A DNA stretch of 64,000 nt from the NCBI RefSeq assembly GCF_008014745.1, contig NZ_VPFD01000002.1, positions 62,001-126,000 on the forward strand. Reading direction: 5' to 3'. Made by a program: the position numbers and the translations under genes. This document shows, in pieces, positions 18,994 to 36,083 of the stretch. Position 1 is the first letter of the stretch. Each line of letters opens with the position of its first letter. This DNA comes from Massilia arenae. Its GTDB lineage: Bacteria > Pseudomonadota > Gammaproteobacteria > Burkholderiales > Burkholderiaceae_D. The notes under the pieces are model-generated. The model did no database searches and was not told the DNA's origin. It was given only the letters and a program-made list of their open reading frames with translations.

Positions 18994-21045
18994 ATGGGTA
19001 ACATCCCGACACTACAAAGCCTGATTGCCGGCCGCTGGCACGGCCAGGAATCGCACACCGCGCTGCACAGCGCCCTCGACAACGCGCTGATCTATCACAC
19101 GCACGCCGAGAAGATCGATTTCGACGAGGCCCTGACTTTTGCACGCAAGACCGGCATCAAGAGCTTGATGAGCCAGGACTTCCAGAAGCGTGCGCAATGC
19201 CTGAAGGCGCTGGCGCTGTACCTCATGGAGCGCAAGGAAGAGCTGTACGAGATCTCGCACCTGACCGGCGCCACGCGCCAGGACAGCTGGGTCGACGTCG
19301 AAGGCGGCATCGGCACCCTGTTCGCCTACGCCAGCATGGGCTCGCGCGAGCTGCCGTCATCGAACGTGCTGCACGAAGGACCGGCCATGGCGCTGGGCAA
19401 GCGCGGCGGCTTCTCCGGCACCCACATCCTGGTGCCGCGCGGCGGCGTGGCGGTGCACATCAATGCCTTCAACTTCCCGATCTGGGGCCTGCTCGAGAAA
19501 TTCGCGCCGAGCTTCCTGGCGGCCATGCCTTGCATCGCCAAGCCTGCCACCGCCACCAGCTACCTGACCCATGCCGTGGTGAAAATGATGATGGAGTCGA
19601 ACCTGCTGCCGGCCGGCGCGCTGCAGCTCGTGATCGGCAGCACCGGCGACCTGCTCGATCGCCTGGGTGGTTTCGATGCCGTCACCTTCACCGGCTCGGC
19701 CGATACCGCCGCCAAGCTGCGTTCGAACCCGAACCTGATCCGCGCTTCGGTGCCATTCACGGCCGAAGCCGACTCGCTCAACTGCGCGATCCTGGCGCCG
19801 GACGTCACGCCCGACGATCCGGAGTTCGATCTGTTCGTGAAGGAAGTGGCGCGCGAGATGACCGGCAAGGCCGGCCAGAAGTGCACCGCGATCCGCCGTG
19901 TGATCGTGCCGGAAACGCTGGTCGATGCGGTCGGCGAACGCCTGAGAGAGCGCCTGGCCAGGACCACGGTTGGCAATCCGAAAGTGGAGGGCGTGCGCAT
20001 GGGCGCGCTGGCCTCGATGGACCAGCACCGCGACGTCAGCGAGCGGGTCGAGCTGCTCGCGCGCGGCAACGAGGTCCTGTTCAGCGCGCGCGACGGCTTC
20101 AATCCGGTCGGCGACAACGTCGCCAGCGGCGCCTTCTTCTCGCCCACCTTGCTGCTATGCCGTAACGCCATGGACAACGACGCCGTGCACGACGTGGAAG
20201 CCTTCGGCCCGGTCAGCACGCTGATGACCTACCGCGACATCGATGAGGCACTGGAGCTGGCCGCGCGGGGCAAGGGCAGCCTGGTGACGACGCTCGCCAC
20301 CAAGGACCCTGCGATCGCCGCCTACGCCGTGCCGGTGGCGGCGGCCTCGCACGGCCGCGTGCTGATCCTGGATCGCGAAGCAGCGGTGGACAGCACCGGC
20401 CACGGCTCGCCGCTGCCGCAACTGAAACACGGCGGCCCGGGCCGCGCCGGTGGCGGCGAAGAGCTGGGCGGCATCCGCGCCGTCAAGCACTTCCTGCAGC
20501 GCGCCGCGGTGCAGGGTTCGCCGACCATGCTCGGCGCCGTGACGGGTGAATACGTGCGCGGCGGCGCCGTCAGGGAAAGCGAGATCCACCCATTCCGCCG
20601 CTACTTCGAAGACCTGGAGATGGGCCACTCGCTGCTGACCCACCGCCGCACGGTGAGCGAAGCCGACATCGTCAATTTCGGCGGCGTCTCGGGCGACTAC
20701 TTCTACATGCACTTCGACGAGATCGCAGCGAAAGACACGCAGTTCGGCCAGCGCATCGCGCACGGCTACTTCGTGCTGTCGGCGGCGGCCGGCCTGTTCG
20801 TGTCGCCGGCGCCGGGGCCGGTGCTGGCCAACTACGGCCTGGACAACCTGCGGTTCGTGGCGCCGGTGGCAATCGGCGACACCATCCGCGCGCGCCTGAC
20901 CTGCAAGCGCAAGGTCGATCGCAACCGCGCGGATGAGCAGGGCAGGGGGCAGGGCGTGGTGGCGTGGGACGTGCAGGTGACGAACCAGCGCGATGAACTC
21001 GTGGCTAGCTACGATATCCTGACGCTGGTGCAGAAGCGCAGCTGA
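18994..21045 (+). CDS. paaZ: Bifunctional oxepin-CoA hydrolase / 3-oxo-5,6-dehydrosuberyl-CoA semialdehyde dehydrogenase PaaZ
   Basis: A 683-residue fusion. Residues 1-520 are an aldehyde dehydrogenase with catalytic Glu258 (TAEADSLN) and Cys297 (GQKCTAIRR); residues about 535-683 are a MaoC-like R-hydratase domain that opens the oxepin ring (FGGVSGDYFYMHFDE and AHGYFVLS motifs). The linked active sites pass the reactive aldehyde directly. GAGGAGACAG precedes the ATG. It is the last gene of the operon; the next gene is convergent 24 nt away and no T-tailed terminator was seen. Confidence 0.94.
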   Translation: MGNIPTLQSLIAGRWHGQESHTALHSALDNALIYHTHAEKIDFDEALTFARKTGIKSLMSQDFQKRAQCLKALALYLMERKEELYEISHLTGATRQDSWVDVEGGIGTLFAYASMGSRELPSSNVLHEGPAMALGKRGGFSGTHILVPRGGVAVHINAFNFPIWGLLEKFAPSFLAAMPCIAKPATATSYLTHAVVKMMMESNLLPAGALQLVIGSTGDLLDRLGGFDAVTFTGSADTAAKLRSNPNLIRASVPFTAEADSLNCAILAPDVTPDDPEFDLFVKEVAREMTGKAGQKCTAIRRVIVPETLVDAVGERLRERLARTTVGNPKVEGVRMGALASMDQHRDVSERVELLARGNEVLFSARDGFNPVGDNVASGAFFSPTLLLCRNAMDNDAVHDVEAFGPVSTLMTYRDIDEALELAARGKGSLVTTLATKDPAIAAYAVPVAAASHGRVLILDREAAVDSTGHGSPLPQLKHGGPGRAGGGEELGGIRAVKHFLQRAAVQGSPTMLGAVTGEYVRGGAVRESEIHPFRRYFEDLEMGHSLLTHRRTVSEADIVNFGGVSGDYFYMHFDEIAAKDTQFGQRIAHGYFVLSAAAGLFVSPAPGPVLANYGLDNLRFVAPVAIGDTIRARLTCKRKVDRNRADEQGRGQGVVAWDVQVTNQRDELVASYDILTLVQKRS

Positions 21046-21069
21046 ACCGCGGGCGCGGCGCCGGGCGGT

Positions 21070-21876
21070 TCAGCGCTCCGGCGCCGCCTCCGGCATCGGA
21101 CCCGAAATGAGGATTTCGTCGGTCTCGAGATCGACCAGCAGCAGTCCCAGCACGCGTGCCGGCTGGACCCCCGATACGATGGTCTGGTTGATCATGCCGA
21201 AGCGCATCTTGCCGCTTTGATCAGTACGAAATGGACCGTCGGGCTGCATGACGAAAAAGAAGGCGGCTTTTTCCTGGGCCAGTCGCTGCTTGATGAGTTG
21301 GGCCTGCTCGATGTCGTCGATGGCGAGGTACTGGAATGCCGGATGCTTGCCATTCCAGTTGATGGGGCCGACACAGGCGCTCAGCAGGGTGTTGCGGATC
21401 TTGTCGTAAGCCCCCGAGCAGTGATAACTGTCGTTCGAGCGCGGCTTGGCCACCTGCAGTTGCAGCTTCAGCGGAAAGCGGCGGTGCTCGAAGTCGTACT
21501 CGCCCAAGCTGTAGCGCACACCGACCAGGTAGCCGCGCGCCTGGCGCAGGGCGGTCGTCCGGTCTTCAAGGTGGGGCTTGAAGGCCTGAAGCGCCTGGTG
21601 GACCTTGAATTCGTCGCGGTCGTCGAGTTCGCGGCTGCGTTTCTTCAGGTCGGCCGGCAGGCTGTTCCGGCCCTGGAGCAGCAGGGTGCGGGCGTCGTAA
21701 GGCTTGCCCGTGGCGACCGGATATAGCAAGGGTGTGGTAAGCAGGTCTAGCGGCACATAGCCGGCCTGTTCCAATTCGCCGAAGCTGCCCGCCTCGGGCA
21801 TGCCGGCCTGCGCCAGGCTCGCGCCAGTGAGGGTCAGCGCCAGGATGACGTTATGGCCAGGGAAGGTTCTAATCAT
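21070..21876 (-). CDS. Exported protein of unknown function, paralogue of the 24335-25087 lipoprotein
   Basis: A 268-residue protein with a likely signal peptide (MIRTFPGHNVILALTLTGASLAQA) and no other membrane segment. I do not recognise the family with certainty; it may be DUF4852-like. By eye it aligns with the lipoprotein at 24335-25087: both have a charged helix ending in an ALQ-x-(F)-x-P element, a GYLV/GRYVM strand, a YDFE/YNFE motif, and near the C-terminus a beta pair ending in LVDLETDE / RLLDPSGE. The start at 21876 overlaps the end of the upstream membrane-protein gene by 8 nt, so it is the last gene of the leftward operon. Confidence 0.75.
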   Translation of the reverse strand: MIRTFPGHNVILALTLTGASLAQAGMPEAGSFGELEQAGYVPLDLLTTPLLYPVATGKPYDARTLLLQGRNSLPADLKKRSRELDDRDEFKVHQALQAFKPHLEDRTTALRQARGYLVGVRYSLGEYDFEHRRFPLKLQLQVAKPRSNDSYHCSGAYDKIRNTLLSACVGPINWNGKHPAFQYLAIDDIEQAQLIKQRLAQEKAAFFFVMQPDGPFRTDQSGKMRFGMINQTIVSGVQPARVLGLLLVDLETDEILISGPMPEAAPER

Positions 21877-23539
21877 GTGAATCGTCTGCAATGGTGGTCG
21901 GGCGATAGCCGAAATCATGGCCGCGCAGCACGTGCACTCGCACGGCCTCGAACAGGGGGTAGGCGACCGGCTGCACCTGGATCACGCTGCGCGCGTAGAA
22001 CACCATGGCGCGGCCACCCAGGGTCGGCGTGCCCTCGCCGCCCAGCATGGCGCCGCGCTGCTCGAAGTAGTCGTACAAGGGCTGGTGCGGAATCTGGCTG
22101 GTCGGGACGAAGTGGAAGACGCCCAGCAGGGCCAGCGAAGATCCGGTCACGAACGCGCCCTTGGCCAGGCCGTAGGTGAAGCCGCGGCCGAACGCCAGCT
22201 GCACCACGAACAGCGCCAGCTTGATCAGGTGGACCAGGGCGCCCATGATTGAAAACGCCAGCGCGACCGGCGGCACCACCATGGCGCGCATGCTGTCCAT
22301 GCCCAGTTCCTGGTGCCTGCCGTCATCGGCGAATGTCGCTACCGGCGCGCTGTGTTTCTTCAGCTTGTCCTGCACATGCCAGTCCAGCACCTTCTCATAT
22401 ACAGCGCGCTCGAAGAAGCGCGGAGCCTCGCGGTCGGACGGCAGGTCGATCGGCAGCCGCACCCCGGTGTCGGCGTACTGGAGCTTGCGACGCCAGTCGT
22501 CCTGCACCAGCGGGTGAGAGAAGAAGCCGCGCTTGTCGAGGTTGGGCGCGAGCCGTTGGCCGTCGAAATGGCGGGCAACGGCGGCGTGGAACTCCTCCAT
22601 CGCGCTTGTGCGCACCTTGCGCTCGATGGCGTCGTCGAACGCGCCGCGGTCGCCCGGATCCCAGCCCTTGGGAACTGGAACGCCGTTCGCGCGTACGTCG
22701 TCGCGCACCCTGCGCCAATAGGCGGGCGGCACGCGTTCGGGCGACAGGCCTCGCCGCGCCAGCCGCGCCGTGTAGTCGCGCCAGGCGCGCTGTTGCCTGG
22801 CGCCGATCCCTGACAGCGCTGCGTTGTATTTGTCGCAGCCGACGAGGTAATCCTCGTTGTAGCGCTTGATCAGCTCCTCGCGCGAGGCGAGGAAGCGGTT
22901 GTAGTTCTTGTCGAGCCCCCCATACGCGCGGTCGGTCACGCTGCGCAGCATGTGGGCCTTCTGCTCGCGAATCTTTTCCTCGAGGTTGCGCGTCGAGTAG
23001 GCCAGCAAGGGGAACACGGCAAGGAAGGTCTTGCCGTCGGGTGCGGCGAGCTGCTCGCGTGTGAGCGGCAGGTTGGCCAACTCGACGCCGCCCGCCACCA
23101 GCGCGTTCTGGACGGTGAGCAGGTTGACCGCCAGGTAGCGCTGCTCGGGGCTCGAACGTTCGACGATCGCATCCACCAGTTCGCGCTCCGCGTGGTAGGT
23201 CAGCGCGATTGCCGGCACGCTGATCGCCAGCAGCGCGGCGGCCGTGCGCAGCGGATGCCAGCCACGGTGCACCCCACGCCTGAGCAGGAAAGGCCACAGC
23301 ACCAGCGCGACGGCGGCGCCCGAGATCAGGCGGCCGCGCACTTCGATGGCTTCCACCGCATGCTTGTCGGGCATGCCGCCGACGACATCCAGCAGGCGCG
23401 AATTGAAGCCGCACTCCACCAGCAGGTAGGTGCCGGTGACGATCGCCATCACCCACACCCATGCCGCGCGCGGCTGGCGCGAGAACAGCCAGCCGTCGCC
23501 GGCGCTGGCGGATCCGGCGTGGCGCTCAGTCAGCGTCAT
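21869..23539 (-). CDS. Polytopic membrane protein of unknown function
   Basis: A 556-residue protein. Hydrophobic segments occur near residues 28-45, 70-86, 100-115, then after a long charged, probably soluble region (about 120-410) again near 418-452 and 460-480. The central region is rich in Arg/Lys/Glu and helix-forming (EEKIREQKAHMLRSVTDRAYG). No known motif is recognised. It overlaps the upstream lipoprotein gene by 14 nt and the downstream exported-protein gene by 8 nt, so the three are translated together and may form one envelope complex. Confidence 0.72.
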   Translation of the reverse strand: MTLTERHAGSASAGDGWLFSRQPRAAWVWVMAIVTGTYLLVECGFNSRLLDVVGGMPDKHAVEAIEVRGRLISGAAVALVLWPFLLRRGVHRGWHPLRTAAALLAISVPAIALTYHAERELVDAIVERSSPEQRYLAVNLLTVQNALVAGGVELANLPLTREQLAAPDGKTFLAVFPLLAYSTRNLEEKIREQKAHMLRSVTDRAYGGLDKNYNRFLASREELIKRYNEDYLVGCDKYNAALSGIGARQQRAWRDYTARLARRGLSPERVPPAYWRRVRDDVRANGVPVPKGWDPGDRGAFDDAIERKVRTSAMEEFHAAVARHFDGQRLAPNLDKRGFFSHPLVQDDWRRKLQYADTGVRLPIDLPSDREAPRFFERAVYEKVLDWHVQDKLKKHSAPVATFADDGRHQELGMDSMRAMVVPPVALAFSIMGALVHLIKLALFVVQLAFGRGFTYGLAKGAFVTGSSLALLGVFHFVPTSQIPHQPLYDYFEQRGAMLGGEGTPTLGGRAMVFYARSVIQVQPVAYPLFEAVRVHVLRGHDFGYRPTTIADDSHD

Positions 23540-24332
23540 GCATGATCACCCTGGCGGGTGCGATCTCGGTGACGCCGTTGTCCGGCAGCTTGCTGTACTT
23601 GCCTGCGTCGATCTTGCGCGCCGGCGCCACCGGCGTCGGCTCCCGTTTCGCGTTCGCCACGGCAGGCCTGGCGGACGCGCTGCGCTTGGCGGTAACGGCA
23701 CGCGGGCGCGCCGCCGCTGGCGCTTCGCCGGACTCGAAACGGCCGGCCAGCCGCCGTCCGGCGCCGGACGCCGCCTGGCCGGCCTCGCGTCCGGGCGGCG
23801 CGCCCAGGTCAGGATGGCGCATCCTTACCAGCTTCCCGTTGGACCAGGACCAGGCCATCCGCTCGCCATTGCCGCGTTCCTGCAGAGCCGTCCAGCCCTG
23901 GCCGTCGGATGCAAAGCCCAGCATGCGATCGCATTGCCCCGGCGTGTTGTTGATGTCGTACATGCCCACCGTCAGGCCGCGCAGCTCGTACAGCCGGTGG
24001 GCCTGCGGACAGGCCTGGGTCGGCGCATGGAGCACGATCAGGTCGTATCCCGACACGTGTTCGGCGCGCACCACTCGCGGGTTGTCGATGCGTCCCAGTT
24101 CGATCAGCTTCATGCGGTCGTACAGCTTGATCTGGTACTGCTGGTCCAGGGTGCGGCGCAACACTCCCTCGGCCGAGCCGACCTTGAACACCTGCAGCCT
24201 GGTGGCGGTAAGTTCATCCGCGTCGAGCTGGACCAGGGTATTGCCGCCCTGCTGGCTGATGGCGCAGCCCCCCAGCAGCAGAGACAGGGCAGCAATAGCC
24301 GGACGCCATGGAAAGCGAGGCGTGAAACGCAT
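23526..24332 (-). CDS. Lipoprotein of unknown function
   Basis: A 268-residue protein with a basic N-terminus, a hydrophobic stretch and a clear lipobox (SLLLGGC), so it should be acylated at Cys and anchored in the envelope. The middle part contains several Cys residues (TQACPQAHRL, NTPGQCDRM) that could form disulfides; the C-terminal third is low-complexity, rich in Ala, Arg and Pro. The ATG at 24332 begins 2 nt after the upstream stop; a TTG at 24338 could also serve and would overlap. Function not recognised. Confidence 0.72.
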   Translation of the reverse strand: MRFTPRFPWRPAIAALSLLLGGCAISQQGGNTLVQLDADELTATRLQVFKVGSAEGVLRRTLDQQYQIKLYDRMKLIELGRIDNPRVVRAEHVSGYDLIVLHAPTQACPQAHRLYELRGLTVGMYDINNTPGQCDRMLGFASDGQGWTALQERGNGERMAWSWSNGKLVRMRHPDLGAPPGREAGQAASGAGRRLAGRFESGEAPAAARPRAVTAKRSASARPAVANAKREPTPVAPARKIDAGKYSKLPDNGVTEIAPARVIMHDAD

Positions 24333-24334
24333 GT

Positions 24335-25087
24335 TCAAAGCTCGGTCAGCAGCTCGCCGGACGGGTCGAGCAGCCGCACTTTCATCACCTGCAGCTTGAC
24401 ACGGCGATTGCTCGGATCGACATCCTGCACGAAGGCATAAGTCTGCATGCGCAGTTGGGCATATTTGCTCAGGTAGCCTTCGATCTTGCGCGCGGACGCT
24501 TCATCGGGAACCGGGAATGCGGTGAACTGGCTGTTGTTGGTATTGGTCAGCGTGTACTTGCTGTTGTCGTTGAAGTAGCGATAGCGGTCATCGCTGGCGA
24601 ATTCGTCGATGGCGAACGATTTCTTCTCGAAGTTGTAGCGCTGCAGCAGCGAGCTGTCCTGCTGTTCCAGCATGACGTAGCGGCCGGCCTTCGCGTTGGC
24701 GATTTCCTGGTCGATGCGCGGCTGCAGCGCCTTGATGATGTCGTTGCGCTTGAAGCTGTCGCTTGTGCGGCTGTAGTCGTCGGAATAGGCCTGCGCGATG
24801 TCTTCGTAAGGCACGGGCATGTTCGCCAGCGCATAGTAGAGGAACATCACCTGGTGTCCGCTGTCGATCTTGCGGTAGGCCGACACCGGCGTGGCCGGGT
24901 CGCCTTTCGGCAGCGTGGACGCAGCCACCTTGGCCATGACTTCCGGGTTCTTCAGGTCGGCAAGGCCGGGGGCGGCGGCTTCCGGCGCGGCCGGCGCCGT
25001 GTCGTTGCTCTTGCCGCAGGCGGCCAGGCAGAGGGCGAGGATGGTGGGAGGCGCGAGTCGGACGATGCGCGAGGCGAAGCGGTTCAT
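24335..25087 (-). CDS. Lipoprotein (possible DUF4852-like), paralogue of the 21070-21876 product
   Basis: A 250-residue lipoprotein: MNRFASRIVRLAPPTILALCLAACGKS has a lipobox (LAAC). After an Ala/Pro-rich linker the folded domain starts near residue 48 (NPEVMAKVAAS). It contains the RNDIIKALQPRID and LLQRYNFEKKSF elements shared in pattern with the exported protein at 21070. The start at 25087 is fixed by the signal sequence and a GGAAAAC ribosome site; the open frame continues upstream only as a shadow. The next gene follows directly. Confidence 0.75.
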   Translation of the reverse strand: MNRFASRIVRLAPPTILALCLAACGKSNDTAPAAPEAAAPGLADLKNPEVMAKVAASTLPKGDPATPVSAYRKIDSGHQVMFLYYALANMPVPYEDIAQAYSDDYSRTSDSFKRNDIIKALQPRIDQEIANAKAGRYVMLEQQDSSLLQRYNFEKKSFAIDEFASDDRYRYFNDNSKYTLTNTNNSQFTAFPVPDEASARKIEGYLSKYAQLRMQTYAFVQDVDPSNRRVKLQVMKVRLLDPSGELLTEL

Positions 25088-25131
25088 GTGGTTTTCCTTG
25101 TAGTTGGATGAATGATGTGGGTGGGGGCCGA

Positions 25132-26103
25132 TCAGCGCGCCGAGCGCAGGGCCTGGACGCCGCGCCACGCGAGGTACGCCGCCGCGGCCAGCGAGACATA
25201 GGTGCCGAAACCCACCGAGATGGCGTTCATGATCTGCTGGACCATGGCGTCGGCCATCTCGTCCATACGATTGCCGCCGAAGGCGCGCATGCCGTCGCGC
25301 GCATCGCTGGCCATCGAGTTGATCTTCAGGTAGATCGTCAGGCCGACCAGCGCCAGGAAGGCCAGGGGAGCGAAATAAGCGAATGGCGCGTACTTGTGCT
25401 TGACGAAGGCCGGCAGCAGGGGCGCGAACATCGCCAGGACGCACAGCACGCCATACAGGCCGCTGCTGCCGCCGCCCAGTTGGCCGAAGCTCTCCAGGCT
25501 GGCGCCACTATTGGCCAGGCGCAGCACGTCGAACATGGTGGCGCTCTGCTTGATGGCCGCCATCACGGTCACGGTGACCGCCGGCAGCCAGACCCAGCTC
25601 ACCAGAACGAGGAGCACCGCCGCCAGTACTGGCTTGCCGATCCGCCCGATCCCGGCGACCACGATCGGCAAGCCGCCGTCGAGCGCCTGCCTGGCCTTCT
25701 CCTTCACTTTTTCCAGGTCTTCCACGCCGATGCGCGCCGGGACGACCATGCTGATTTCGCCTTGCAGGTCCAGGGTTACGTCGACCGGCATCGCGACCAT
25801 CGGCGCGGAGCTGCCGTGCCAATGCTGTTCAAGGGTGAAGGTTTTTTTCTGGCCGTTCACCGAGATCATTCCTGGACCGGAATTCGTGTCGCGCAGGATC
25901 GTGCCGCGCACGGTGGCAGGAGCGGCGGCGGGCATCGTGGCGGCCGCCGCCACTGCCGGCATTGGCGCTACCGGTGCCGGCGCGGCCGCCGGCGAGGCGT
26001 TGGCCTGCATGGTCGGGTTCTGCAGGCCGCATTCTTCGCAAAAGCCGGCGCCGATGGCGACCGAAGTGCCGCAGCGGGTGCAGTTCAGGGAAACAGCGGA
26101 CAT
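25132..26103 (-). CDS. Zinc-ribbon membrane protein
   Basis: A 323-residue protein. An N-terminal double-CxxC zinc ribbon (CTRCGT...CEECGL, residues 8-26) is followed by an Ala/Pro-rich linker, a short beta-rich region (70-130), and then about four hydrophobic helices (about 150-180, 210-232, 240-262, 295-315). Zinc-ribbon plus membrane-anchor proteins of this design often act as scaffolds or sensors. It lies 44 nt downstream of the gene at 26147 and upstream of the lipoprotein gene, all leftward. Confidence 0.78.
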   Translation of the reverse strand: MSAVSLNCTRCGTSVAIGAGFCEECGLQNPTMQANASPAAAPAPVAPMPAVAAAATMPAAAPATVRGTILRDTNSGPGMISVNGQKKTFTLEQHWHGSSAPMVAMPVDVTLDLQGEISMVVPARIGVEDLEKVKEKARQALDGGLPIVVAGIGRIGKPVLAAVLLVLVSWVWLPAVTVTVMAAIKQSATMFDVLRLANSGASLESFGQLGGGSSGLYGVLCVLAMFAPLLPAFVKHKYAPFAYFAPLAFLALVGLTIYLKINSMASDARDGMRAFGGNRMDEMADAMVQQIMNAISVGFGTYVSLAAAAYLAWRGVQALRSAR

Positions 26104-26146
26104 GGTGACTCCTTGGTGATGGGGTAAGTGGTAAGGGATGTGCGGA

Positions 26147-26809
26147 TCAGCGCGCGGCCACGGCGCGCTGCTGGCCGGCCTGCACCAGGCTGAAGTCGGC
26201 GTTGTTGGTCGACGCCAGCTTGCCGTTGAGGTAAATGTCGGTCTGCAGGCGGTAGTTGCCTTCGGGGGCGCCCTGGGGCAGGCGCAGGGTGAAGTTGTTG
26301 CTGAATTCACCGCTGCCGCCGGTGGTGTCGACCACCTTTTCGCCGCGCTTGAATTCCTTGCCGTCCGGCGCATAGGCAACCAGCACCTCGCGGATCTCGC
26401 GGATAGGCTCGCCGGTACCCGAGACTGCGCGGATGGTCGACTGCACCTTGACCGGATTGCCGCTGACGACCTGGCCGCGCGGCGAGACGCTGCTGGCATA
26501 GCTCACCAGCCTGGCCGAGGCGGGCAGGGTGTTGCGGTTGCCGCTGCGGTAGGCTTTCTCGACTTCGTCGGATGAGCGGGTGCGGCTGGACACCACTTCC
26601 ATGACGGCGCAGGCGCCCAGGCCCAGCGCCGCGCCGCGCAGCACGCCGCGCTTGCCGTCGACCAGGCCGCCAAGTACGGCGCCGCCGGCGGCCATCAGGC
26701 CGCATTTCATGGCTGTGTTGTCGGTACCCATGCCGGATTGGCCAGTGGTGGCGCACCCGGTGACGGCGAGCGAGATGCACAGCACGGTAGCGAGGGTTTG
26801 ATGTTTCAT
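26147..26809 (-). CDS. Glycine-zipper lipoprotein
   Basis: A 220-residue lipoprotein with signal and lipobox (ISLAVTGCATT). Residues about 36-70 form a glycine-zipper helix pair (GLMAAGGAVLGGLVDGKRG, then RGAALGLGACAVM), as in outer-membrane-associated lipoproteins. The C-terminal half is a beta-sandwich-like domain (VKVQSTIRAVSG, FTLRLPQGAPEGNYRLQTD) of the kind used for binding. GGAAT ribosome site before ATG. 33 nt separate it from the zinc-ribbon gene upstream. Confidence 0.78.
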   Translation of the reverse strand: MKHQTLATVLCISLAVTGCATTGQSGMGTDNTAMKCGLMAAGGAVLGGLVDGKRGVLRGAALGLGACAVMEVVSSRTRSSDEVEKAYRSGNRNTLPASARLVSYASSVSPRGQVVSGNPVKVQSTIRAVSGTGEPIREIREVLVAYAPDGKEFKRGEKVVDTTGGSGEFSNNFTLRLPQGAPEGNYRLQTDIYLNGKLASTNNADFSLVQAGQQRAVAAR

Positions 26810-26842
26810 GCCGATTCCTTGATGTGGTGAGTTCGTGGTGAG

Positions 26843-27877
26843 TTATTCGATTGAGCTGCCTGCACGCAGCGCTTCCAGCTGTCCGGTCTTCGCCTTGTCG
26901 AGCAGGACGCGGGCTGCGCGATTGTCGGGGTGCAGCGCGAGGATGCTTTCGGCGGTGGCGATCGCCTTGTCGAACTGCGCCTGCGCCAGGTATTGCTCGG
27001 CGCGCGACAGCAGGGCGCGGATGCCATCGTCAGCCGGCGCCGGCGGCGGCGTGCGCTCGGCCCTGGGCTTGGGCGGGGCGGCGACTGCGCGTACGGGCGC
27101 CGGCGTCTGGGCCGCCGGTGTGGGTGGCTGCTCGACACGGGGCGGCGGCGCGGCCGGTTGCGGCGTCGGTTCCAGCGCGATGGGGGCCGGAGATACAGGG
27201 GCCGGCGATACGGGGGGCGTGGCCACGGCCGGGGCGGCCGGCAGGGGCGTCGGCGCCTGCTGCGGCTCCGGCACGCTTTCCGGCGGCTGTGCCGTGGATG
27301 GGACGGCCGCCACCGGCGCGCTGCCGGCGTCGTCGGCCAGCAGGTAATAGGCGGCGCCTGCGCCGGCGATGACGATGCCGGCGCCACCAATCACGAGCAT
27401 CCGCGTCAGGCGGGACGAGGCGCCCGGCTCCGGCTGAGGCGCCGCTGGGTCGCGTGCGCCGTCCACCGGCACGGTCGCGGCGTCGGTCGCGGCGTCGGTC
27501 GCGGTGGCAACTGGCGGATCGTGGCGCAGGGGAGCGAGCTCTGGCTCCTGCTCGGGTTCAGGTTCAGGTTCAGGCGCCGCCCTGGTCTCGGGCGCTGGCG
27601 CAGCTTCCGCTTCCGGCTGCGGTGCGGGCGCAGGCATCGATGGCGGCTCGGGCATGGGCTGCGGCGCCGGAATGATCTCTGGTTCCGGCGCCGGCGCTGG
27701 CGTCACCAGCGGCGCCGCGGTCGGCTTCCCACAGCTGCCACAGAACTTCGCGCCAGGCTTCAAGGGATGGGAACAAGTGCAGCATCGAGCGGCCGGCGCA
27801 GCGAGCGACGTGCCGCATTTTTTGCAGAATTTCGCCGTTGGCGCATTAATGGTATCGCAGGAAGAGCAGGTGGTCAT
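26843..27877 (-). CDS. Double zinc-ribbon, Pro/Ala-rich single-pass membrane protein with TPR-like tail
   Basis: A 344-residue protein. Two zinc ribbons occupy the first 52 residues (CSSCDT..CKKCGT and CCTCSH..CGSCGK). A long Pro/Ala/Glu linker leads to one hydrophobic segment (about 163-183, LVIGGAGIVIAGAGAAYYLL), a second Pro-rich stretch, and a C-terminal helical repeat (LSRAEQYLAQAQFDKAIATAESILALHPDNRAARVLL without the full run quoted as a motif; key TPR-type residues A, Y, A, P). It is the first gene of the leftward operon, divergent from the sigma-factor gene across a 194-nt AT-rich gap. Confidence 0.78.
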   Translation of the reverse strand: MTTCSSCDTINAPTAKFCKKCGTSLAAPAARCCTCSHPLKPGAKFCGSCGKPTAAPLVTPAPAPEPEIIPAPQPMPEPPSMPAPAPQPEAEAAPAPETRAAPEPEPEPEQEPELAPLRHDPPVATATDAATDAATVPVDGARDPAAPQPEPGASSRLTRMLVIGGAGIVIAGAGAAYYLLADDAGSAPVAAVPSTAQPPESVPEPQQAPTPLPAAPAVATPPVSPAPVSPAPIALEPTPQPAAPPPRVEQPPTPAAQTPAPVRAVAAPPKPRAERTPPPAPADDGIRALLSRAEQYLAQAQFDKAIATAESILALHPDNRAARVLLDKAKTGQLEALRAGSSIE

Positions 27878-28071
27878 ATTAGTTGGCGTAGTTATTTCTG
27901 GTTACTTTGCAGTGTTGCGCCTGATATAAAAGTATTACTCTGTCAAAAAATTTTGCTAGCATACTCACTGTTCTTGTTTTCTGCCACTGTAAACTCTTCC
28001 AGCCACGTACCACCCTTGATCGTGATAGCTTTGATTTCGGTTCAATTGTTAAGTAAATATTTTTTGATTTA
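27878..28071. promoter_or_regulatory. AT-rich divergent promoter region of the zinc-ribbon and sigma-factor operons
   Basis: This 194-nt gap is much more AT-rich than the surrounding DNA and separates two outward-facing gene sets. It holds several A/T runs, for example around 27940-27955 and 28045-28070. No Shine-Dalgarno precedes the sigma-factor ATG. I could not assign -35/-10 pairs with confidence; if the ECF factor controls its own block, its target motif should be here. Confidence 0.5.
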
Positions 28072-28668
28072 ATGAAAAACCTGCCGCGCCACGAAGTTAA
28101 AAATTTATTGAACCGAATTGAAAAAGGTGACGATACAGCTTGCGCACGGCTGTATTCGGCATATCAGTCGGACTTGTATGCCTATGTGCGCTACCGTGTC
28201 TGGGACGATGCCGGAGCCGAGGAGGTCGTGGTTGACACGTTCCACGCGGCATTCCGCAAGCCAGGGGCATACCATGGATTGTCAGAATATTCGACATGGG
28301 TATGCGGTATTGCAAACAATAAAATTCGCGAATGGCGCCGAAAGAACGTCAAATATACGCGCGAGATTGGTGGTGCGGATACCGCGTTGTTCGATGCCGT
28401 GCAAGAACCGGAGTGGGATGTGGCAACGCTTCTCGACGAGCGTGAAATGGGTGAAGCATTACTCGAGTGTATTGACAAGCTCCCCGATGCGCAGCGTGAA
28501 GCGATTTATTGGACTGCAGTCGAAAACTGCAGTGTGGAAGAAGCAGGAGTTAAATCTGGTGCGCCGGCAGGAACAATCAAATCGCGCCTGTTTCATGCAA
28601 GGCGGGTAATTCGCGCCTGTCTCGAGCGAGCGATCGGCAGTAATCATGCGGGAGAAAGAATTGGATGA
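28072..28668 (+). CDS. ECF-type RNA polymerase sigma factor
   Basis: A 198-residue sigma-70-family group 4 factor with region 2 (about residues 20-90: YSAYQSDLYAYVRYRV, then EVVVDTFHAAFRKP, then STWVCGIANNKIREWRRK) and region 4 (about 130-190: LPDAQREAIYWTAVENCSVEEAG and GTIKSRLFHARRVIR). Codon use is more AT-rich than in most of the window. No Shine-Dalgarno is visible before the ATG, so the start could be leaderless or slightly different. The end overlaps the anti-sigma gene by 23 nt. Confidence 0.9.
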   Translation: MKNLPRHEVKNLLNRIEKGDDTACARLYSAYQSDLYAYVRYRVWDDAGAEEVVVDTFHAAFRKPGAYHGLSEYSTWVCGIANNKIREWRRKNVKYTREIGGADTALFDAVQEPEWDVATLLDEREMGEALLECIDKLPDAQREAIYWTAVENCSVEEAGVKSGAPAGTIKSRLFHARRVIRACLERAIGSNHAGERIG

Positions 28669-29296
28669 GCTTGATCGTAAAAGACAGTTTCGGGATTTAT
28701 TACCGTTTTATGTCAATGGAACGCTCGACGAAACCCAGCATGCATATATTGAAAAATATATTGCGGAGAATTCCGACGCGCGTGCTGAATTGCACTTCGC
28801 TGAACGAATGATGGGGGCGGCGCGCCTGCACGGCGAACGGCGCGACCCGATGGCCGGTTATGCGCTGCTCAAGAAACGCATGGATGCCTCCCGGCCGGCG
28901 TCCGGGCCGGCGGCATGGCTGCGCGCATGGCGCGAACGGCTGCACGGCTGGGGTCTGGCGCCGGGCCCCGCCGCGCTGGTGGCCTTGCTGGCAGTCCAGT
29001 TCACGGTCGTCGGTGCGCTGTTCGTGCCGGGGCCGGAACTCGTCACCACGCGCGGCGTCGCCACCAGCGCCGCCACCTTGCAGCGCGCCCAGGTCAAGCT
29101 CACGCTCAAGCCCGGCGCCGCGTTCGGCGAGGTGGTGGCGCTGCTCGTCCGGCACGGCTGCAAGATCGTATGGGGGCCGACCCCGGCCGGCGAGCTATGG
29201 CTGGCGCTGGATGAGCCGCGCGACGCAGCGCGCATCCGCGCTTCCCTCGCGCAGTCGGCACTGGTCGAGGATGCGCTGGAGTTGACCCAGCCATGA
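28646..29296 (+). CDS. Putative membrane anti-sigma factor
   Basis: A 216-residue protein in the position and shape of an anti-sigma factor. Residues 1-60 resemble the anti-sigma domain (LLPFYVNGTLDETQHAYIEK) but lack the zinc-binding HxxxCxxC of ZAS proteins. One membrane helix spans about 106-127. The C-terminal 85 residues would be periplasmic and form a small alpha/beta domain (QVKLTLKPGAAFGEVVALL). It overlaps the sigma gene by 23 nt and the caspase gene by 4 nt. Assignment as anti-sigma is from context and topology. Confidence 0.75.
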   Translation: MREKELDELDRKRQFRDLLPFYVNGTLDETQHAYIEKYIAENSDARAELHFAERMMGAARLHGERRDPMAGYALLKKRMDASRPASGPAAWLRAWRERLHGWGLAPGPAALVALLAVQFTVVGALFVPGPELVTTRGVATSAATLQRAQVKLTLKPGAAFGEVVALLVRHGCKIVWGPTPAGELWLALDEPRDAARIRASLAQSALVEDALELTQP

Positions 29297-30660
29297 AGCG
29301 CCGTCACATGCTTGCCCTGAGCGCTGCCGCGGCATGGCTGCCGGGTGCCGCTGCGGGGGCCTCGGCCACGAGGACGGCGACCGACCGCCACGCGCTGGTG
29401 ATCGGCAACGGCGCCTACAACACACACCTGCTGCCGAACACGCGCCGCGATGCCGACCTCATGGCCCGGACCCTGGGCAAGGCCGGCTTCACCGTCACGC
29501 TGTCGAAAGACCTGGACCGCAGCGCCATGTTCGAGGCAGTGCGCGGCTTCTGCGCCGGCCTGCGCCCTGGCGCGACCGCGCTCGTCTACTACGCCGGACA
29601 TGGCATCCAGATCGACGGCAGCAATTACCTGCTGCCGGTCGACATCACGCCGACCAGCGCAGCCGGGGTAGCACAGCGCGCCTTTTCGCTGCAGACCTTG
29701 CACGAGCGGCTGGCGTTGTCGCAGTCGGCGGTCAACATCATCATCCTGGACGCCTGTCGCAACAACCCGTTTCAGCCGGTGCCGGCGGTACGGCTGCGCA
29801 ATTTCACGAACCTGGGACTGGCGGGCACGCGCGCCCCGCGCGGCACCCTGGTCGCGTATTCGACCGCGCCGGGACAACTGGCCGAGGACGGGACCGGGCG
29901 CCGGCACAGCATCTATACCGAGACCCTGGCCAACCTGCTCGGCCAGCGCGGCCTGGATGCGGAGCGACTGTTTCGCGACTTGTCGGACCAGGTACGGCGG
30001 CGCACGCTCGAAGACCAGCAACCCTGGTTCGAATCCTCGCTGGCCGGTGATTTCTACTTCCTGCCGCCGCCCGGCTGGCGTGCGCCGGCCTGGGTCGCGC
30101 CGCCTCCCGACGCCGGGCGCAAGCATGCCAACAAGCGGTACCGCAGCGGCGACGGCTCGATCGGCAGCACCGGCGACGCCAGCTGGTACCGAGACATGGA
30201 CGAGCGTGCATGGACCGAGCTCGATCACGATATCGAGCGGCGTGCGCGCCAGGTCGACGCCGCGGCGCTGACGCGCCTGAAGCGCCAGGCCGCTGGCGGC
30301 AACGTCGTCGCCATGACGACGCTCGGCATGGCCGCCTTGGCGCCAGCAGGCCGGGGCCAAGGCGCTGGCGCGGCGCAGCAGTGGCTGCACAAGGCGGCCC
30401 GACTCGACTTCCCGGTGGCCCAGACCCAGCTGGCAGAGATGATGATCGCCGGCCAGGCCAGGGGCGACGCCACCGAGGCGCTGCGGCTGCTGCGGCGCGC
30501 CGCCGACGCCCGTTATCCGCGCGCGCGCATCGACCTGGCCCAACTCGAGATGCAGCGCCAGCCGACGCCGGAAGCGGCGCAGCAGCTGTTCAAGACGATC
30601 CTGGAAAACACCGGCGCGACCATGCGCCAGTACTATCCGGCCCCTGCACCGCTCAAGTAG
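29293..30660 (+). CDS. Exported caspase-like (C14) protease with SEL1-type repeats
   Basis: A 455-residue protein. Residues 1-25 form an export signal with a twin-arginine-like start (MKRRHMLALS). The caspase p20-like domain spans about 32-250 with the dyad His103 (YYAGHG) and Cys155 (DACRNNPF). Residues about 330-440 contain SEL1/TPR-like helical repeats (GNVVAMTTLGMAALA, FPVAQTQLAEMMIAG). Bacterial caspase homologues cut after basic or acidic residues and act in signalling or cell death. It starts by a 4-nt overlap with the anti-sigma gene, so all three are made together. Confidence 0.85.
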   Translation: MKRRHMLALSAAAAWLPGAAAGASATRTATDRHALVIGNGAYNTHLLPNTRRDADLMARTLGKAGFTVTLSKDLDRSAMFEAVRGFCAGLRPGATALVYYAGHGIQIDGSNYLLPVDITPTSAAGVAQRAFSLQTLHERLALSQSAVNIIILDACRNNPFQPVPAVRLRNFTNLGLAGTRAPRGTLVAYSTAPGQLAEDGTGRRHSIYTETLANLLGQRGLDAERLFRDLSDQVRRRTLEDQQPWFESSLAGDFYFLPPPGWRAPAWVAPPPDAGRKHANKRYRSGDGSIGSTGDASWYRDMDERAWTELDHDIERRARQVDAAALTRLKRQAAGGNVVAMTTLGMAALAPAGRGQGAGAAQQWLHKAARLDFPVAQTQLAEMMIAGQARGDATEALRLLRRAADARYPRARIDLAQLEMQRQPTPEAAQQLFKTILENTGATMRQYYPAPAPLK

Positions 30661-30697
30661 TCCGGCTTCGCCCGCGACACGAACCATCCAGAATGTG

Positions 30698-33226
30698 ATG
30701 AACCAGACTAAAGACCTCGAAGTAACTCTGCTTTCCTGCGCGGCATGCGACGCCGTCTACCCGGACGACGCGCTGTTCTGCGACCATTGCGGTGCCCCCG
30801 CGAGCGCCCCCCTGTCAGGCGCGACAAGCCTGTTGCCGGCGGTCGCCGGGCTGGAGGAGGACGGGATGGCGCTGGCGGCGCCCGTCGCCAGCGATGCGCT
30901 TTCCATGGTGCGCCATCTGGTGCGCGACAAGACGCGCTTCGAGCCGCACGACGTCCAGGCGATCGCCGAAGAAGACATCGCCTATCCCTACTACCTGGAG
31001 GTCGCCCATGTGCTCGACGCATCCCCGCAGCGCACGGCGATCACCGGACACTTCAAGCCCGGCCCCGGAGACCAGCGTTGCAGCGCCCCGGGACAGTTCC
31101 TGGCAAGCGAGGAGCGCCAGCGCCACACCGTTCTCGGCGAGGCGATGGCCAGGCTGGAGCGCCAGTTGCACGAGCCGGAAACCGCCTACGACACGGTCAG
31201 CGACGGGATCTACCTCGGCGCCCAGGTGCGGCACCATTACCTGGCGACCTGCGCGACGTGCGATGGAGAGGGCCGGGATACCTGCCACGGTTGCCGCGGC
31301 TGCGGCAACGAAGAATGCTGGGAGTGCCACGGCAGCCTGCGGGTCAAGTGCAAGTCCTTCAACTGCATGTTCGGCAAGGTCAATTGCAATTCTTGCGTGG
31401 GCCGCGGCTATACCACGCGCATCGAGTATTACTCCGAGACGATCCAGGTTCCGGTGACCGTCACCGACTACCACAGCACCGGCACGAGCCAGCGTACGGA
31501 ATACCATTACGAGAATGTGAGCCGACAGCGCGAGGTGCAGGATCCATGCTATTTCTGCCAGGGCGGCAAAGTCGATTGCGGTAGCTGCAACGGCACCGAC
31601 CGGGTGCAGTGTCCGACCTGCCATGCGACGGGCACGGTACGCTGCCGCACTTGCGGCGGCAGTGGCCACCTGGTCTGCAGTCCCTGCGCCGGATCGGGCG
31701 AGACCGGACAGTCGTCGGCCGTCAGCGTGCACCTGGCGACGGCATATGCGATCGAGCAGCCCGACGGCATGCCGGAAGATGCGCTGCAAATTGCCTATGG
31801 CGAAGGCGCGCACGCCCTGGCCCGAATCAGCGATGCCATCAGCCTGGCCGGGCTGGCGCCGGGCGACGACGGCGCGACCCTGGTGGCGCGCTACGCGATG
31901 CCGGTGCGCCTGGTGCGGCTGGCGGCCGGATGCGGCGCCGAGCGCTACGACCTGGTGGCGTATGGACGCCCATTGCGCTGGCTGACGCTGGACGATATGG
32001 TCGAGGACCTGCTGCAGCGCGACCTGCGAGCCCTGAAAGAAGCGCTGGCCCGCATGGCCGATGACGGCGTGTTCGCCAGCGATGTCGACAAGCTGCTTGC
32101 GCCATTGCGCCATGTCGCGGCGTCCGAGCTGAACGCCGAGGTCGTCGAATCCGTGCTCGAGGGGAAGGGCGCCAGCGCGCACGCGGGCGTCGTGTCGGCG
32201 CAGTATGCCAGCGATATCGAGGCAGCGGTGCTTGGCACCTTGCGCCATGCCTATACGCGATTCGCCAAGCGCAGCTGGTGGCATGGCGCCCTGGCCAGTG
32301 CGCTGCTGCTGCTGGGCGGCTGGTTGTGGGCCGGCCTGCTGCCGGGGCTCGCGCTCGCCAGCCTGGCTTTGCCGATAAGCGTATGGATGTTCCAGCGTCG
32401 GATGCGCGCCACGCTGGGCGAGGCCCTGGGCAGCGAGACGCAGGCGCGGCGCGCCATGGCCCTGGCACGCAAGGGCAGGCGCGACCGCGCCGCCCTCGTC
32501 ATGCTGCTGGCTCCGACGGTGCTGCTGCTGGCGTGCGCCGTCTGGGCCCTGCCCATGCACAGCCCCTTGCCCGGCCGTGCCGCCGTCGCTGCCGCAGCGC
32601 CGGCCACGCCATCGGCCGCCGAGCGCGAGGCCGTCGCTCCGGTATTGCGCAGCCATGCGGCCGGCGAACTGGAGAGCGCGCGCGCCAGCCTGCGGATCCT
32701 GGCCGGGGAAGGCAATGGCGCCGCCTACGGTCCCTATGCATGGATGGTGCTGCTGGGCGAAGGACTGACGCCGGGCGAGATCGCGCGCGATGACATGCGC
32801 GAGCGGGTGGCTGCGGCACGCGAGTGGGCAGCCAAGGCGGTGGAGCTTGACGATGCCTGGGGACTTGCCACCCAAGGCATGATTCAGGTAAACAAGCAAG
32901 GTGGTCATTTCGACATGGCCGAGGGCTTGCGCAAGCTGGAACTGGCCGCCGGCCGCGGTCATCTCGGCGCCATGCACTTCCTGGGAATGATCCACTACAA
33001 GGGCGTCAACGTGCCGGTCGACCATGCCCAGGCCCGCACCTGGTTCACCCAGGCCGCGCAGCGCGACGACGCCACGGCGCTCTACAATCTCGGGCTCATG
33101 GACTGGGAAGGCAATGGCATTGCTCGTCCCGACCGCACCAGTGCCATGAAACACTGGCGTCGCGCCGCCGCGCTCGGTAATGAACTGGCGCGCCGCGCCG
33201 TCGTGAAACGGCGGCCTGCCGACTGA
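30698..33226 (+). CDS. Zinc-ribbon / DnaJ-like Cys-rich / SEL1 membrane protein
   Basis: An 842-residue mosaic. An N-terminal zinc ribbon (CAACDA..CDHCGA, about 14-33) is followed by a region without motif, then about residues 183-335 rich in CxxCxGxG-type units as in the DnaJ zinc domain (CATCDGEG, CHGCRGCG, CPTCHATG, CRTCGGSG, CSPCAGSG). Hydrophobic helices lie near 527-565 (two) and 598-620, and the C-terminus (about 690-840) has SEL1 repeats (GHLGAMHFLGMIHYKG, DDATALYNLGLMDWEG). Start: ATG at 30698; a GTG directly before it could be used. It is 37 nt after the caspase gene and is the last gene of this operon. Confidence 0.82.
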   Translation: MNQTKDLEVTLLSCAACDAVYPDDALFCDHCGAPASAPLSGATSLLPAVAGLEEDGMALAAPVASDALSMVRHLVRDKTRFEPHDVQAIAEEDIAYPYYLEVAHVLDASPQRTAITGHFKPGPGDQRCSAPGQFLASEERQRHTVLGEAMARLERQLHEPETAYDTVSDGIYLGAQVRHHYLATCATCDGEGRDTCHGCRGCGNEECWECHGSLRVKCKSFNCMFGKVNCNSCVGRGYTTRIEYYSETIQVPVTVTDYHSTGTSQRTEYHYENVSRQREVQDPCYFCQGGKVDCGSCNGTDRVQCPTCHATGTVRCRTCGGSGHLVCSPCAGSGETGQSSAVSVHLATAYAIEQPDGMPEDALQIAYGEGAHALARISDAISLAGLAPGDDGATLVARYAMPVRLVRLAAGCGAERYDLVAYGRPLRWLTLDDMVEDLLQRDLRALKEALARMADDGVFASDVDKLLAPLRHVAASELNAEVVESVLEGKGASAHAGVVSAQYASDIEAAVLGTLRHAYTRFAKRSWWHGALASALLLLGGWLWAGLLPGLALASLALPISVWMFQRRMRATLGEALGSETQARRAMALARKGRRDRAALVMLLAPTVLLLACAVWALPMHSPLPGRAAVAAAAPATPSAAEREAVAPVLRSHAAGELESARASLRILAGEGNGAAYGPYAWMVLLGEGLTPGEIARDDMRERVAAAREWAAKAVELDDAWGLATQGMIQVNKQGGHFDMAEGLRKLELAAGRGHLGAMHFLGMIHYKGVNVPVDHAQARTWFTQAAQRDDATALYNLGLMDWEGNGIARPDRTSAMKHWRRAAALGNELARRAVVKRRPAD

Positions 33227-33331
33227 GGTCAATGCGCCGGCCCTGCCCGGAACCGGCCGCTCAGTTCAGTTTGCGGGCGTAGTCCGGGGCATGGGCGGCG
33301 TCATGCAAGAGCCGGATCCGGAGACAGTGTT

Positions 33332-33997
33332 TCAGGACCGCGTACGCTGCAGCCGCAGCAGTCCTTCCGGCGTGCGGATGGCGCGCAAGTCGTCGTAGTC
33401 CGGCACGCCGGTCACGCGGGTTGCGAGCGGCTCGTGGTGGGTGGCGGTGACGACAATGCTGTCCATCCCGGCTGCCTCGGCCGATTGCAGGCCGGCCAGC
33501 GTATCCTCGAACACCAGGCAATCCTGCGGGCGCATGCCCAGTTTTTCTGCGCCCAGCAGGAAGGGATCCGGCGCCGGCTTGCCGCGCTGGACGTCTTCGG
33601 CGGCCACCATCACTGGCGGCGTCGGGAGCCCGGCTGCGGCGATGCGCGCCTCGGCCAGCGCGCGCGGGGCCGACGTGACGATGGCCCAGCGGTCGGCCGG
33701 CAGGGTGGCCAGGAAAGCCGCCACGCCGGCGATCGCCTCGATGCCTTCGACATCCTCGATCTCGGCCAGCGTGATGCGCTGCGCTTCGGCTTCCACATCG
33801 ATATCGGGCAAGCCGACGCCGCGCACCGTGTCGATGCTGCGCTTGCCGTGGATGGTTGGCAGGAAGACGTCGACGTCCAGGCCATGGCTGCGCGCCCAGG
33901 CGGCCCAGACCCGCTCGGCGGCGATGATCGAGGTGAGGATGGTGCCATCCATGTCGAACAGGAAGGCGGCGTAGTCGCGGGTGGGGAGGGCGGTCAT
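33332..33997 (-). CDS. HAD-superfamily phosphatase (subfamily IA)
   Basis: A 221-residue HAD hydrolase of the beta-phosphoglucomutase/sugar-phosphatase type. Motif I is FDMDGTI (residues 14-20), motif II is the VTSAPR segment near 110, motif III the Lys in RGKPAPDPFLLGA, and motif IV VFEDTLAGLQSAEAAGM. A small cap domain is inserted after motif I. Substrate likely a small phosphorylated metabolite such as glycerol-3-phosphate or a hexose phosphate. Single gene; argH follows further along the same strand. Confidence 0.87.
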   Translation of the reverse strand: MTALPTRDYAAFLFDMDGTILTSIIAAERVWAAWARSHGLDVDVFLPTIHGKRSIDTVRGVGLPDIDVEAEAQRITLAEIEDVEGIEAIAGVAAFLATLPADRWAIVTSAPRALAEARIAAAGLPTPPVMVAAEDVQRGKPAPDPFLLGAEKLGMRPQDCLVFEDTLAGLQSAEAAGMDSIVVTATHHEPLATRVTGVPDYDDLRAIRTPEGLLRLQRTRS

Positions 33998-34023
33998 TGA
34001 GTCGTCAATCGATAGCGGAAATG

Positions 34024-34058
34024 AAAAGCGGGCCAGGGCGCTTGAGGCGCTGGCCCGC
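34024..34058 (-). terminator. Rho-independent terminator of argH
   Basis: Read on the minus strand, a 9-bp perfect GC-rich stem (GCGGGCCAG / CTGGCCCGC arms at 34050-34058 and 34028-34036) is followed by TTTT. It lies 16 nt past the argH stop. Confidence 0.75.
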
Positions 34059-34073
34059 CGGAAAGGCTAGAGC

Positions 34074-35471: not shown

Positions 35472-35645
35472 GGTGGAATTCCGGTTGGGGATCCAGCGAT
35501 TATAAACCGCGTCGCTGCTACGTCTTCCGGTGGGCAGATTACTGGGAGAAAGCTAGCGAAAAAAAGCTCCCTGCTGAGCTCAATCGAAACCAATACGGGG
35601 ACCAATCGGCGCTAAAATGGTTTTTTTGCCAGCTTTGCAAGCCCA

Positions 35646-36083
35646 ATGATTACGAACGATTCCAGCTTCCAGGTCAGTACTGACCAGTCCCGGCTCGACA
35701 TCCCGATGATCTACCGCTTCCTCAGTGAGCAGTCGACCTGGGCCGTGGGCATTTCCCGTCCGATCGTCGAGCGCGCCATTGAGAATTCGCTGTGCTTCGG
35801 CGGCTACCTCGACGGCCGCCAGATCGCGTTCGCGCGCGTGATTACCGACTACGCCACCTTTGCGAACCTGGTGGACGTGTTCGTCGTACCGGAATACCGG
35901 GGACATGGCTACGGCAAGCAATTGATCGGCGTGGTGCTGGGCCACCCCAGCCTGCAGAAACTGCGCCGCTTCACGCTGGCCACCAAGGACTCGCACGGCT
36001 TGTACGAGCGCTTCGGTTTTACCGCGCCGTTGTATCCAGAAACTTTGATGGAACGTTACTTTCCCAACATCTATCTATCCTGA
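35646..36083 (+). CDS. GNAT-family N-acetyltransferase
   Basis: A 145-residue acetyltransferase. The acetyl-CoA-binding motif A is VFVVPEYRGHGYGKQLIGVVL (key residues R/G-x-x-G: RGHGYG), followed by the LATKDSHGLYERFGF motif. These small GNATs acetylate amines or amino-acid derivatives. A TAAAAT element lies 36 nt upstream and could be its -10. Substrate unknown. Confidence 0.85.
   Translation: MITNDSSFQVSTDQSRLDIPMIYRFLSEQSTWAVGISRPIVERAIENSLCFGGYLDGRQIAFARVITDYATFANLVDVFVVPEYRGHGYGKQLIGVVLGHPSLQKLRRFTLATKDSHGLYERFGFTAPLYPETLMERYFPNIYLS

Follow-up and report, generated by a model that had tools for sequence, protein, structure and literature searches.

We examined a 64,000-nucleotide window of the Massilia arenae genome (5.97 Mb; contig NZ_VPFD01000002.1, positions 62,001 to 126,000), in which a block of eleven genes at 21,070-33,226 joins an extracytoplasmic function (ECF) sigma factor, a membrane anti-sigma factor and a caspase homologue to a set of mainly envelope proteins, and may act as one envelope-response regulon. 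An open reading frame (ORF) check found all eleven genes, arranged, as a sequence-only reading of this DNA had described, in two divergent operons that start from an AT-rich gap at 27,878-28,071 (194 nt, 35.6% G+C; most of the window has 60-70%). The rightward operon (forward strand) opens with the ECF sigma gene (28,072-28,668), whose product of about 200 residues consists of sigma regions 2 and 4 only, the composition expected of an ECF factor. It overlaps the anti-sigma gene (28,646-29,296) by 23 nt, and this in turn overlaps by 4 nt the gene of a C14, MALT1-like caspase (29,293-30,660). The last gene, ZRsel1 (30,695-33,226), follows after 34 nt counted to its GTG start, or after the previously described 37 nt when counted to the next ATG; its product combines a zinc ribbon, eight CxxCxG motifs, three transmembrane (TM) segments and Sel1 repeats.

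The leftward operon (reverse strand) holds seven genes. A (26,843-27,877) encodes a proline-rich protein with a double zinc ribbon (Pfam E 2e-9), a TM segment and TPR repeats, B (26,147-26,809) a glycine-zipper lipoprotein, C (25,132-26,103) a zinc ribbon followed by three TM segments (by hydropathy), and D (24,335-25,087) and E (23,526-24,338) two further lipoproteins, the latter pairing with F (21,869-23,539), a membrane protein of 556 residues outside any Pfam family. G (21,070-21,918), a periplasmic protein, closes the operon. The description of these genes as mostly overlapping fits D/E (4 nt), E/F (14 nt) and F/G (50 nt), whereas A-B, B-C and C-D are spaced by 33, 43 and 44 nt, with the starts of C and D set at 26,103 and 25,087. 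The three lipoproteins (B, D and E) were recovered by lipobox pattern, and the three N-terminal zinc ribbons (A, C and ZRsel1) were also found, those of C and ZRsel1 through two visible CxxC pairs each and Pfam matches under the cut-offs (best E 0.0016 and 0.003, respectively). A polytopic protein had been announced as well; this is clear for C, whereas F has one segment above the hydropathy threshold and five or six others close to it. The leftward paralogues proved to be D and G: the profile of D matches G with E 6.5e-4, and hhalign gives the pair a probability of 88% (E 3e-6). G scores 12.1 bits against the 22.8-bit cut-off of DUF4852 (PF16144) and D has no match to it; a plasmid protein, 30% identical, carries the DUF4852 annotation. 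A structural model of D (pLDDT 82) found no Foldseek match under E 0.25, and its best VIA hits (Z 4.3, mostly OB folds) are too weak to claim; profiles of D, F and the anti-sigma factor gave nothing credible against Protein Data Bank (PDB) sequences.

To follow the block across genomes we used a profile of D. Of 294 family genomes it matches 38, and in 34 of these E is below 1e-40. Among 321 genomes drawn across the class, the window genome aside, D was found in 2 of 320 and F in 3 of 320, as weaker matches. Selection by D presence gave 39 loci, namely those of the 34 genomes together with L031 (found via its caspase) and L068-L071. The remaining four D-profile genomes were not taken in as such: G126 (locus L087) has a distant D only, and G157, G172 and G285 match at E 4.6e-4 or weaker. 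L065, L066 and L067 come from the same genomes as L032, L072 and L031 and were excluded before counting, and L033, L087, L088 and L100-L104 stayed outside the set, having no D or only distant relatives of D or F. Sampling is uneven: a single genus (g30) contributes 23 of the loci, and the others come from Massilia and near relatives, g64, g50, g56 and Pandoraea.

A core made of a sigma-type protein, the anti-sigma factor, the caspase, C and D occurs together in 36 of the 39 loci. The exceptions are L073 (caspase, C and D; no sigma pair found), L079 (C and D) and L083 (D). E accompanies the core in 30 of the 36 and F in 27, another three ending at a contig end before F; F is present in 29 of the 294 family genomes, 26 of which also have a strong D. 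A glycerophosphodiester-phosphodiesterase-type (GDPD) gene, absent from the window block, is joined in 25 core loci. Gene order and strand vary, being divergent in Massilia, a single run in G302, and divergent in g30 with the sigma-type pair joined to E-F. The sigma position is held by three kinds of protein, the ECF factor of the window, sigB (Pandoraea and g50), which matches the window sigma factor with an hhalign probability of 89%, and sigC (g30, 22 loci), while in six loci (L068 and L073-L077) the caspase position is filled by a second subfamily. The circuit is thus kept while its parts are exchanged, which argues for function over chance neighbourhood. Joint conservation of the two halves had been set beforehand as a test of the block, and, as far as sequence allows, it was borne out both by the core and by a sigma-type promoter motif described below, found before the leftward operon in nine of nine gaps. 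In these comparisons the halves are not coincidental neighbours as far as sigma, caspase, C and D are concerned, and largely so for E-F.

The block exactly fills the interval that runs from paaZ, which ends at 21,045, to the stop codon, at 33,332, of a HAD hydrolase gene. In a sister species (G011), whose paaZ and HAD genes are 97% and 96% identical to the window copies, DNA homology (92.6%) ends at 21,045 and restarts at 33,332, that is, at both stop codons, with 1.0 kb of other content in between; in three more relatives compared at the DNA level, homology breaks at the same sites within about 20 nt. As a genome with homologous flanks holds 1 kb of other DNA there, the eleven-gene block was probably gained or lost as a single unit. 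Among 19 other genomes with both genes on one contig, the paaZ-HAD spacing is 0.67-2.9 kb in 17, 8.3 kb in G019 and 10.7 kb in G010, the latter two carrying their own copy of the system elsewhere. This interval is therefore a variable insertion site. With the core in 36 of 39 loci and the block bounded exactly by conserved flanks, the observation that these genes form a recurring set, above chance, was confirmed.

Another candidate role is phage defence, which the sequence-only reading had entertained, or abortive infection. Caspases act in known defence systems, and the block lies at a variable site, where the 1-kb content of the sister species (L202) consists of small ORFs that by eye resemble a RelE/HigB-type toxin and an HTH antitoxin. 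Against such a role, PADLOC returned only a generic caspase model for the eleven block proteins, a pattern-based scan found no viral-contig relative of D, and the products are mainly envelope proteins. In agreement with the earlier statement that the locus is free of CRISPR, no array was found among direct repeats of at least 20 nt within 200 nt at 19,000-36,000; membership in a type III CRISPR system, judged by an array with cas genes, thus finds no basis in the repeats of this interval or in the PADLOC run, which covered the eleven block proteins only. We dropped the link to phages or CRISPR on these results and regard a defence role as very improbable.

Variation at the site also bears on a different explanation, namely that sigma, caspase, C and D are one system and that A-B, E-F, G and ZRsel1 are separate cargo accreted under one promoter, with no joint task. 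Relatives of these partners indeed occur without the switch (the sigma-type protein, anti-sigma factor and caspase): E-F-GDPD in G148, F-GDPD in G027 and, in G029, an F gene accompanied by a G-like one. An F-G pair is seen at L201. The two-gene module E-F seems to be mobile on its own. On the Salmonella plasmid pRSE40 the E-F pair (L192:6165-8671) adjoins a relaxase gene, and F relatives also lie on Acetobacter and Azospirillum plasmids. Relatives of B were found in 32 of 195 genomes (9 of them weak), in several beside zinc-ribbon proteins, and A and B adjoin the locus elsewhere in G302 only; judged by this distribution, A-B is a separate pair of its own. At L167:9526-15233 and L168:9553-15279, B relatives lie near zinc-ribbon proteins and proteins of 1,220-1,240 residues, which are Tubulin_2 by Pfam in L167 (2e-57) and alike by eye, with a similar start, in L168. 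Full-length ZRsel1 relatives are located in 12 of the 195 genomes, all g30, and in the two such loci inspected no other block family was nearby. G and ZRsel1 are part of the block in the window genome only. The switch genes, too, can stand alone, as at L033:7721-11123 (G027), where sigC, an anti-sigma factor and a caspase have no C or D nearby. Because the pairs E-F, A-B and F-G are found at sites apart from the switch as well, the exact eleven-gene content is seen in the window genome only. Accretion without a joint task nevertheless sits poorly with the presence of E and F in most core loci, with the overlaps between leftward genes and with their one common promoter motif, and we consider it unlikely.

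The caspase domain (PF00656, E 3.6e-36) is of the C14 type with a His-Cys dyad (His103 and Cys155), is followed by C-terminal Sel1-like repeats and has MALT1 as its nearest solved structure (1.1e-9). Asp53 and Asp153 align with two MALT1 aspartates, which we take to be Asp365 and Asp462. All 32 aligned relatives retain the four residues, a count that leaves aside one gapped fragment (L084) among 33 members. In MALT1, Asp365 and Asp462 are described as setting arginine specificity (PMC4357240). The two proteins thus have in common, by alignment, the catalytic pair and two S1 aspartates; they differ in that MALT1 has death and Ig domains (PMC4357240), whereas the block caspase is a bacterial protein with Sel1-like repeats and, judged by eye from its N-terminus, apparently exported. 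By this alignment the caspase would be of the arginine-cutting, MALT1-like kind.

The anti-sigma factor offers a candidate substrate. Its match to an NCBIfam anti-sigma family is below the cut-off for the window copy (E 1.3e-4) and reaches about 1e-8 for two orthologues, and its structural model shows N-terminal helices, one TM segment (residues 109-127), a low-confidence linker and a C-terminal beta-alpha-beta-beta-alpha-beta domain. Across twelve anti-sigma factors (18-40% identical to the window copy), Arg136 (codon 29,051-29,053) is the sole invariant column between residues 119 and 173, and an arginine plus a small residue occurs in 39 of 40 linkers of distinct proteins with this C-terminal domain. 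Since a linker arginine is common by chance, we set aside the mere presence of one and used only the invariant column as a signal. In the model, Arg136 lies within the disordered linker and outside the C-terminal domain.

The same domain raises the prospect of regulation in the reverse direction, in which the caspase is an effector whose expression the sigma factor turns on. It would digest proteins of the envelope or the cell for self-killing or clearance, while the propeptide-like domain of the anti-sigma factor would inhibit it and the invariant arginine would serve as a pseudo-substrate. The caspase does belong to the sigma operon, and the C-terminal domain has a ferredoxin-like fold resembling subtilisin propeptides (Z about 8; the comparison covers residues 139-216 and barely touches the N-terminal fold). 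ACT, S6 and RRM domains reach an equal score, however, and no I9 family appeared among the Pfam matches. The domain also exists as a stand-alone, membrane-anchored protein beside the caspase in L078 (7686-8357) and L080 (7558-8046) and near it in L069-L071 (L069:2713-3312), a finding that counts for either direction of control; none of nine more distant caspase loci has it, which counts for cleavage of the anti-sigma factor. A sulfate-permease-family gene adjoins the copy in L080, and by eye a similar transporter stands beside the Pandoraea copy. The position of Arg136 in a disordered linker, outside the domain, speaks against a pseudo-substrate, and on balance reverse regulation strikes us as improbable. 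Cleavage of the anti-sigma factor by the caspase remains our preferred reading.

Such a switch would require that the sigma factor act on the leftward operon. The promoter motif TTGAACC-N16-CGA lies upstream of the leftward (C) operon in all nine distinct gaps with an ECF-type sigma factor (window, L031, L032, L066, L068 and L074-L077), with conserved boxes and an unconserved spacer; in the window it reads TTGAACC-N16-CGATCAA (28,016-28,045, reverse strand). It is absent at L073, where C, D and the caspase occur and neither sigma nor anti-sigma was detected. Loci with sigB have a different common element before C, ending in CGAATA. A strict pattern, TTGAACC-N16-CGANNMA, was run over nine whole genomes, with the reversed pattern as a control that gave no match in any of them. 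In the window genome (G000) it has two matches, both in the block; in G010 and G019, too, both of the two matches are at the locus, and in other genomes the locus holds 2 of 3 (G301), 1 of 1 (G324 and G025), 1 of 3 (G243) and 1 of 2 (G316). G312, the L073 genome, which has no sigma pair at the locus, has two matches, neither of them there. When the search is confined to the window and tolerates as many as two mismatches, a count of two does not exceed chance (at least two in 29 of 100 shuffles); both window matches are exact, and the weight lies with the genome-wide count.

The second strict match lies inside the sigma gene in the window, G010, G019 and G301. In the window (28,108-28,137, forward strand) it is on the sense strand, 36 nt past the sigma start, and uses rare codons (TTG, 6.5% of Leu; ACA, 3.3% of Thr; 16 window genes). 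It could act as an internal promoter, or simply reflect the conserved protein sequence; as a promoter it could drive caspase expression, which would also suit the reverse direction of control. Because the loci themselves supplied the motif, finding it there does not count as independent evidence; only three points do, namely how rare it is across genomes, the copy inside the sigma gene and the correlation at L073. As far as sequence can tell, the sigma factor probably reaches the leftward half, to which a sigma-type promoter motif joins it.

Building on the gene set and its co-conservation, the rare motif, the invariant arginine, the intact caspase residues and the block-wise presence or absence, we propose that the block is an envelope-response regulon activated by caspase cleavage of the anti-sigma factor, a reading to which we give a probability of about one half. 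In this model the anti-sigma factor would hold the ECF sigma factor at the inner membrane. The exported caspase would meet its periplasmic part and, when active, cut the linker after Arg136; the remaining stub would be degraded by the usual site-2 and cytosolic proteases, releasing the sigma factor. Freed sigma would bind TTGAACC-N16-CGA, and the proteins expressed from the leftward operon, A to G, would repair or remodel the envelope. Feedback is possible if the anti-sigma factor and caspase are also expressed from the internal promoter. We infer the export, the cleavage, the direction of activation, the signal and the roles of C, D, E and F. Repair or remodelling is the favoured output on the basis of product location, given three lipoproteins, several membrane proteins, one periplasmic protein and the GDPD gene of 25 of the 36 core loci. 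One functional block with most products in the envelope, as first described, agrees with this picture, and the earlier interpretation is partly supported overall. More tentatively, though as a real possibility, site-1 cleavage in an ECF sigma switch would be the task of a periplasmic paracaspase: by cutting the anti-sigma factor at the invariant arginine it would turn on an envelope machine, C-D together with E-F, that is both mobile and modular. The sigma and caspase parts of this machine would be replaceable between lineages by unrelated or distantly related ones, with the circuit kept.

Several observations weigh against the caspase-gated regulon. In 22 of the 36 core loci the sigma position is taken by sigC, in which neither hhalign (1.6% and 15%) nor Pfam (no match) recognises a sigma factor, and we do not count it as one; this protein of 253 residues (L081:6419-7180 and orthologues) could be a very divergent sigma factor or another kind of regulator. 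The Pandoraea caspase lies on the opposite strand with a transporter gene in between, and the E-F pair is found apart from the switch, both in other genomes and on a plasmid. Regarding the cleavage site, an arginine plus a small residue is in itself nothing unusual for a linker some 24 residues long, one of the 40 linkers (L105) lacks it, and several of the twelve aligned anti-sigma factors are close relatives. The S1-pocket comparison covers two aspartates of a MALT1 acidic set made of Asp365, Asp462 and Glu500. Among the nine distant caspase controls, an unrelated sigma/anti-sigma pair lies within about 3 kb in L034, and a sigma-like match occurs in L186; nearness of a sigma gene alone is therefore weak evidence. 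The circularity of the motif, noted above, points the same way.

The proposed switch has partial precedents. In the RseA/RpoE system the site-1 protease is DegS, a serine protease, whereas a paracaspase is proposed for that step here. The likeness lies in a membrane anti-sigma factor that is a protease target, there of DegS and RseP (PMC10028731). Craspase comprises the protease Csx29, the inhibitor Csx30 and CASP-sigma, with Csx29 RNA-activated through Cas7-11, and so likewise has a caspase-like (CHAT) protease that cuts an ECF sigma inhibitor (PMC10028731). It differs from the block, where no CRISPR is seen, the protease is of the C14 type and apparently exported, and the inhibitor spans the membrane. 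Metacaspase operons with sigma factors were listed in 2012 for Myxococcus, Anaeromyxobacter, Haliangium, Sorangium, Ralstonia and Fibrobacter (PMC3501461). Compared by description, they share with the block a caspase homologue and a sigma-70 factor in one operon, and the section on them mentions neither an anti-sigma factor nor a promoter, a cleavage site or partners such as C, D, E and F. With these operons and Craspase in print, the sigma-caspase pairing itself is already known, so the view that the content of the block is without described precedent holds for the exact eleven-gene set and not for the pairing. The ECF54 group has CHAT-type caspase neighbours and a proposed proteolytic control (PMC8999054), a likeness in these two respects and not a group assignment, and EACC2-caspase loci with ECF genes have been described (PMC8195603). 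FtsZl1/Tubulin_2 operons (PMC2875224) are linked to the block through the B relatives near Tubulin_2-like genes in L167 and L168; unlike them, the block has no visible tubulin-like gene, and the main text of that paper contains neither 'caspase' nor 'sigma'. In the available text of a Janthinobacterium genome paper (PMC8929069), 'caspase family protein' and 'anti-sigma' occur once each. Among the best-ranked open-licence literature, no description was found of this gene set, with a caspase that is exported and has an anti-sigma factor as its target.

Elsewhere in the window, at 40,795-46,000, a VgrG gene (type VI secretion) is followed by a low-GC stretch (G+C 0.45 at 44-46 kb), which contains an ORF without a Pfam match (45,131-45,856) and is possibly an effector/immunity island of that secretion system.

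To our knowledge, the substrates of exported bacterial caspase homologues are largely unknown. For one such homologue the locus points to a specific predicted substrate, with the residue to be cut and the promoter through which the switch would act. If the proposed switch is real, it would extend caspase-gated transcription from the CRISPR-linked case to envelope signalling without CRISPR, and would group four protein families without an assigned function (C, D, E and F) in one regulon.

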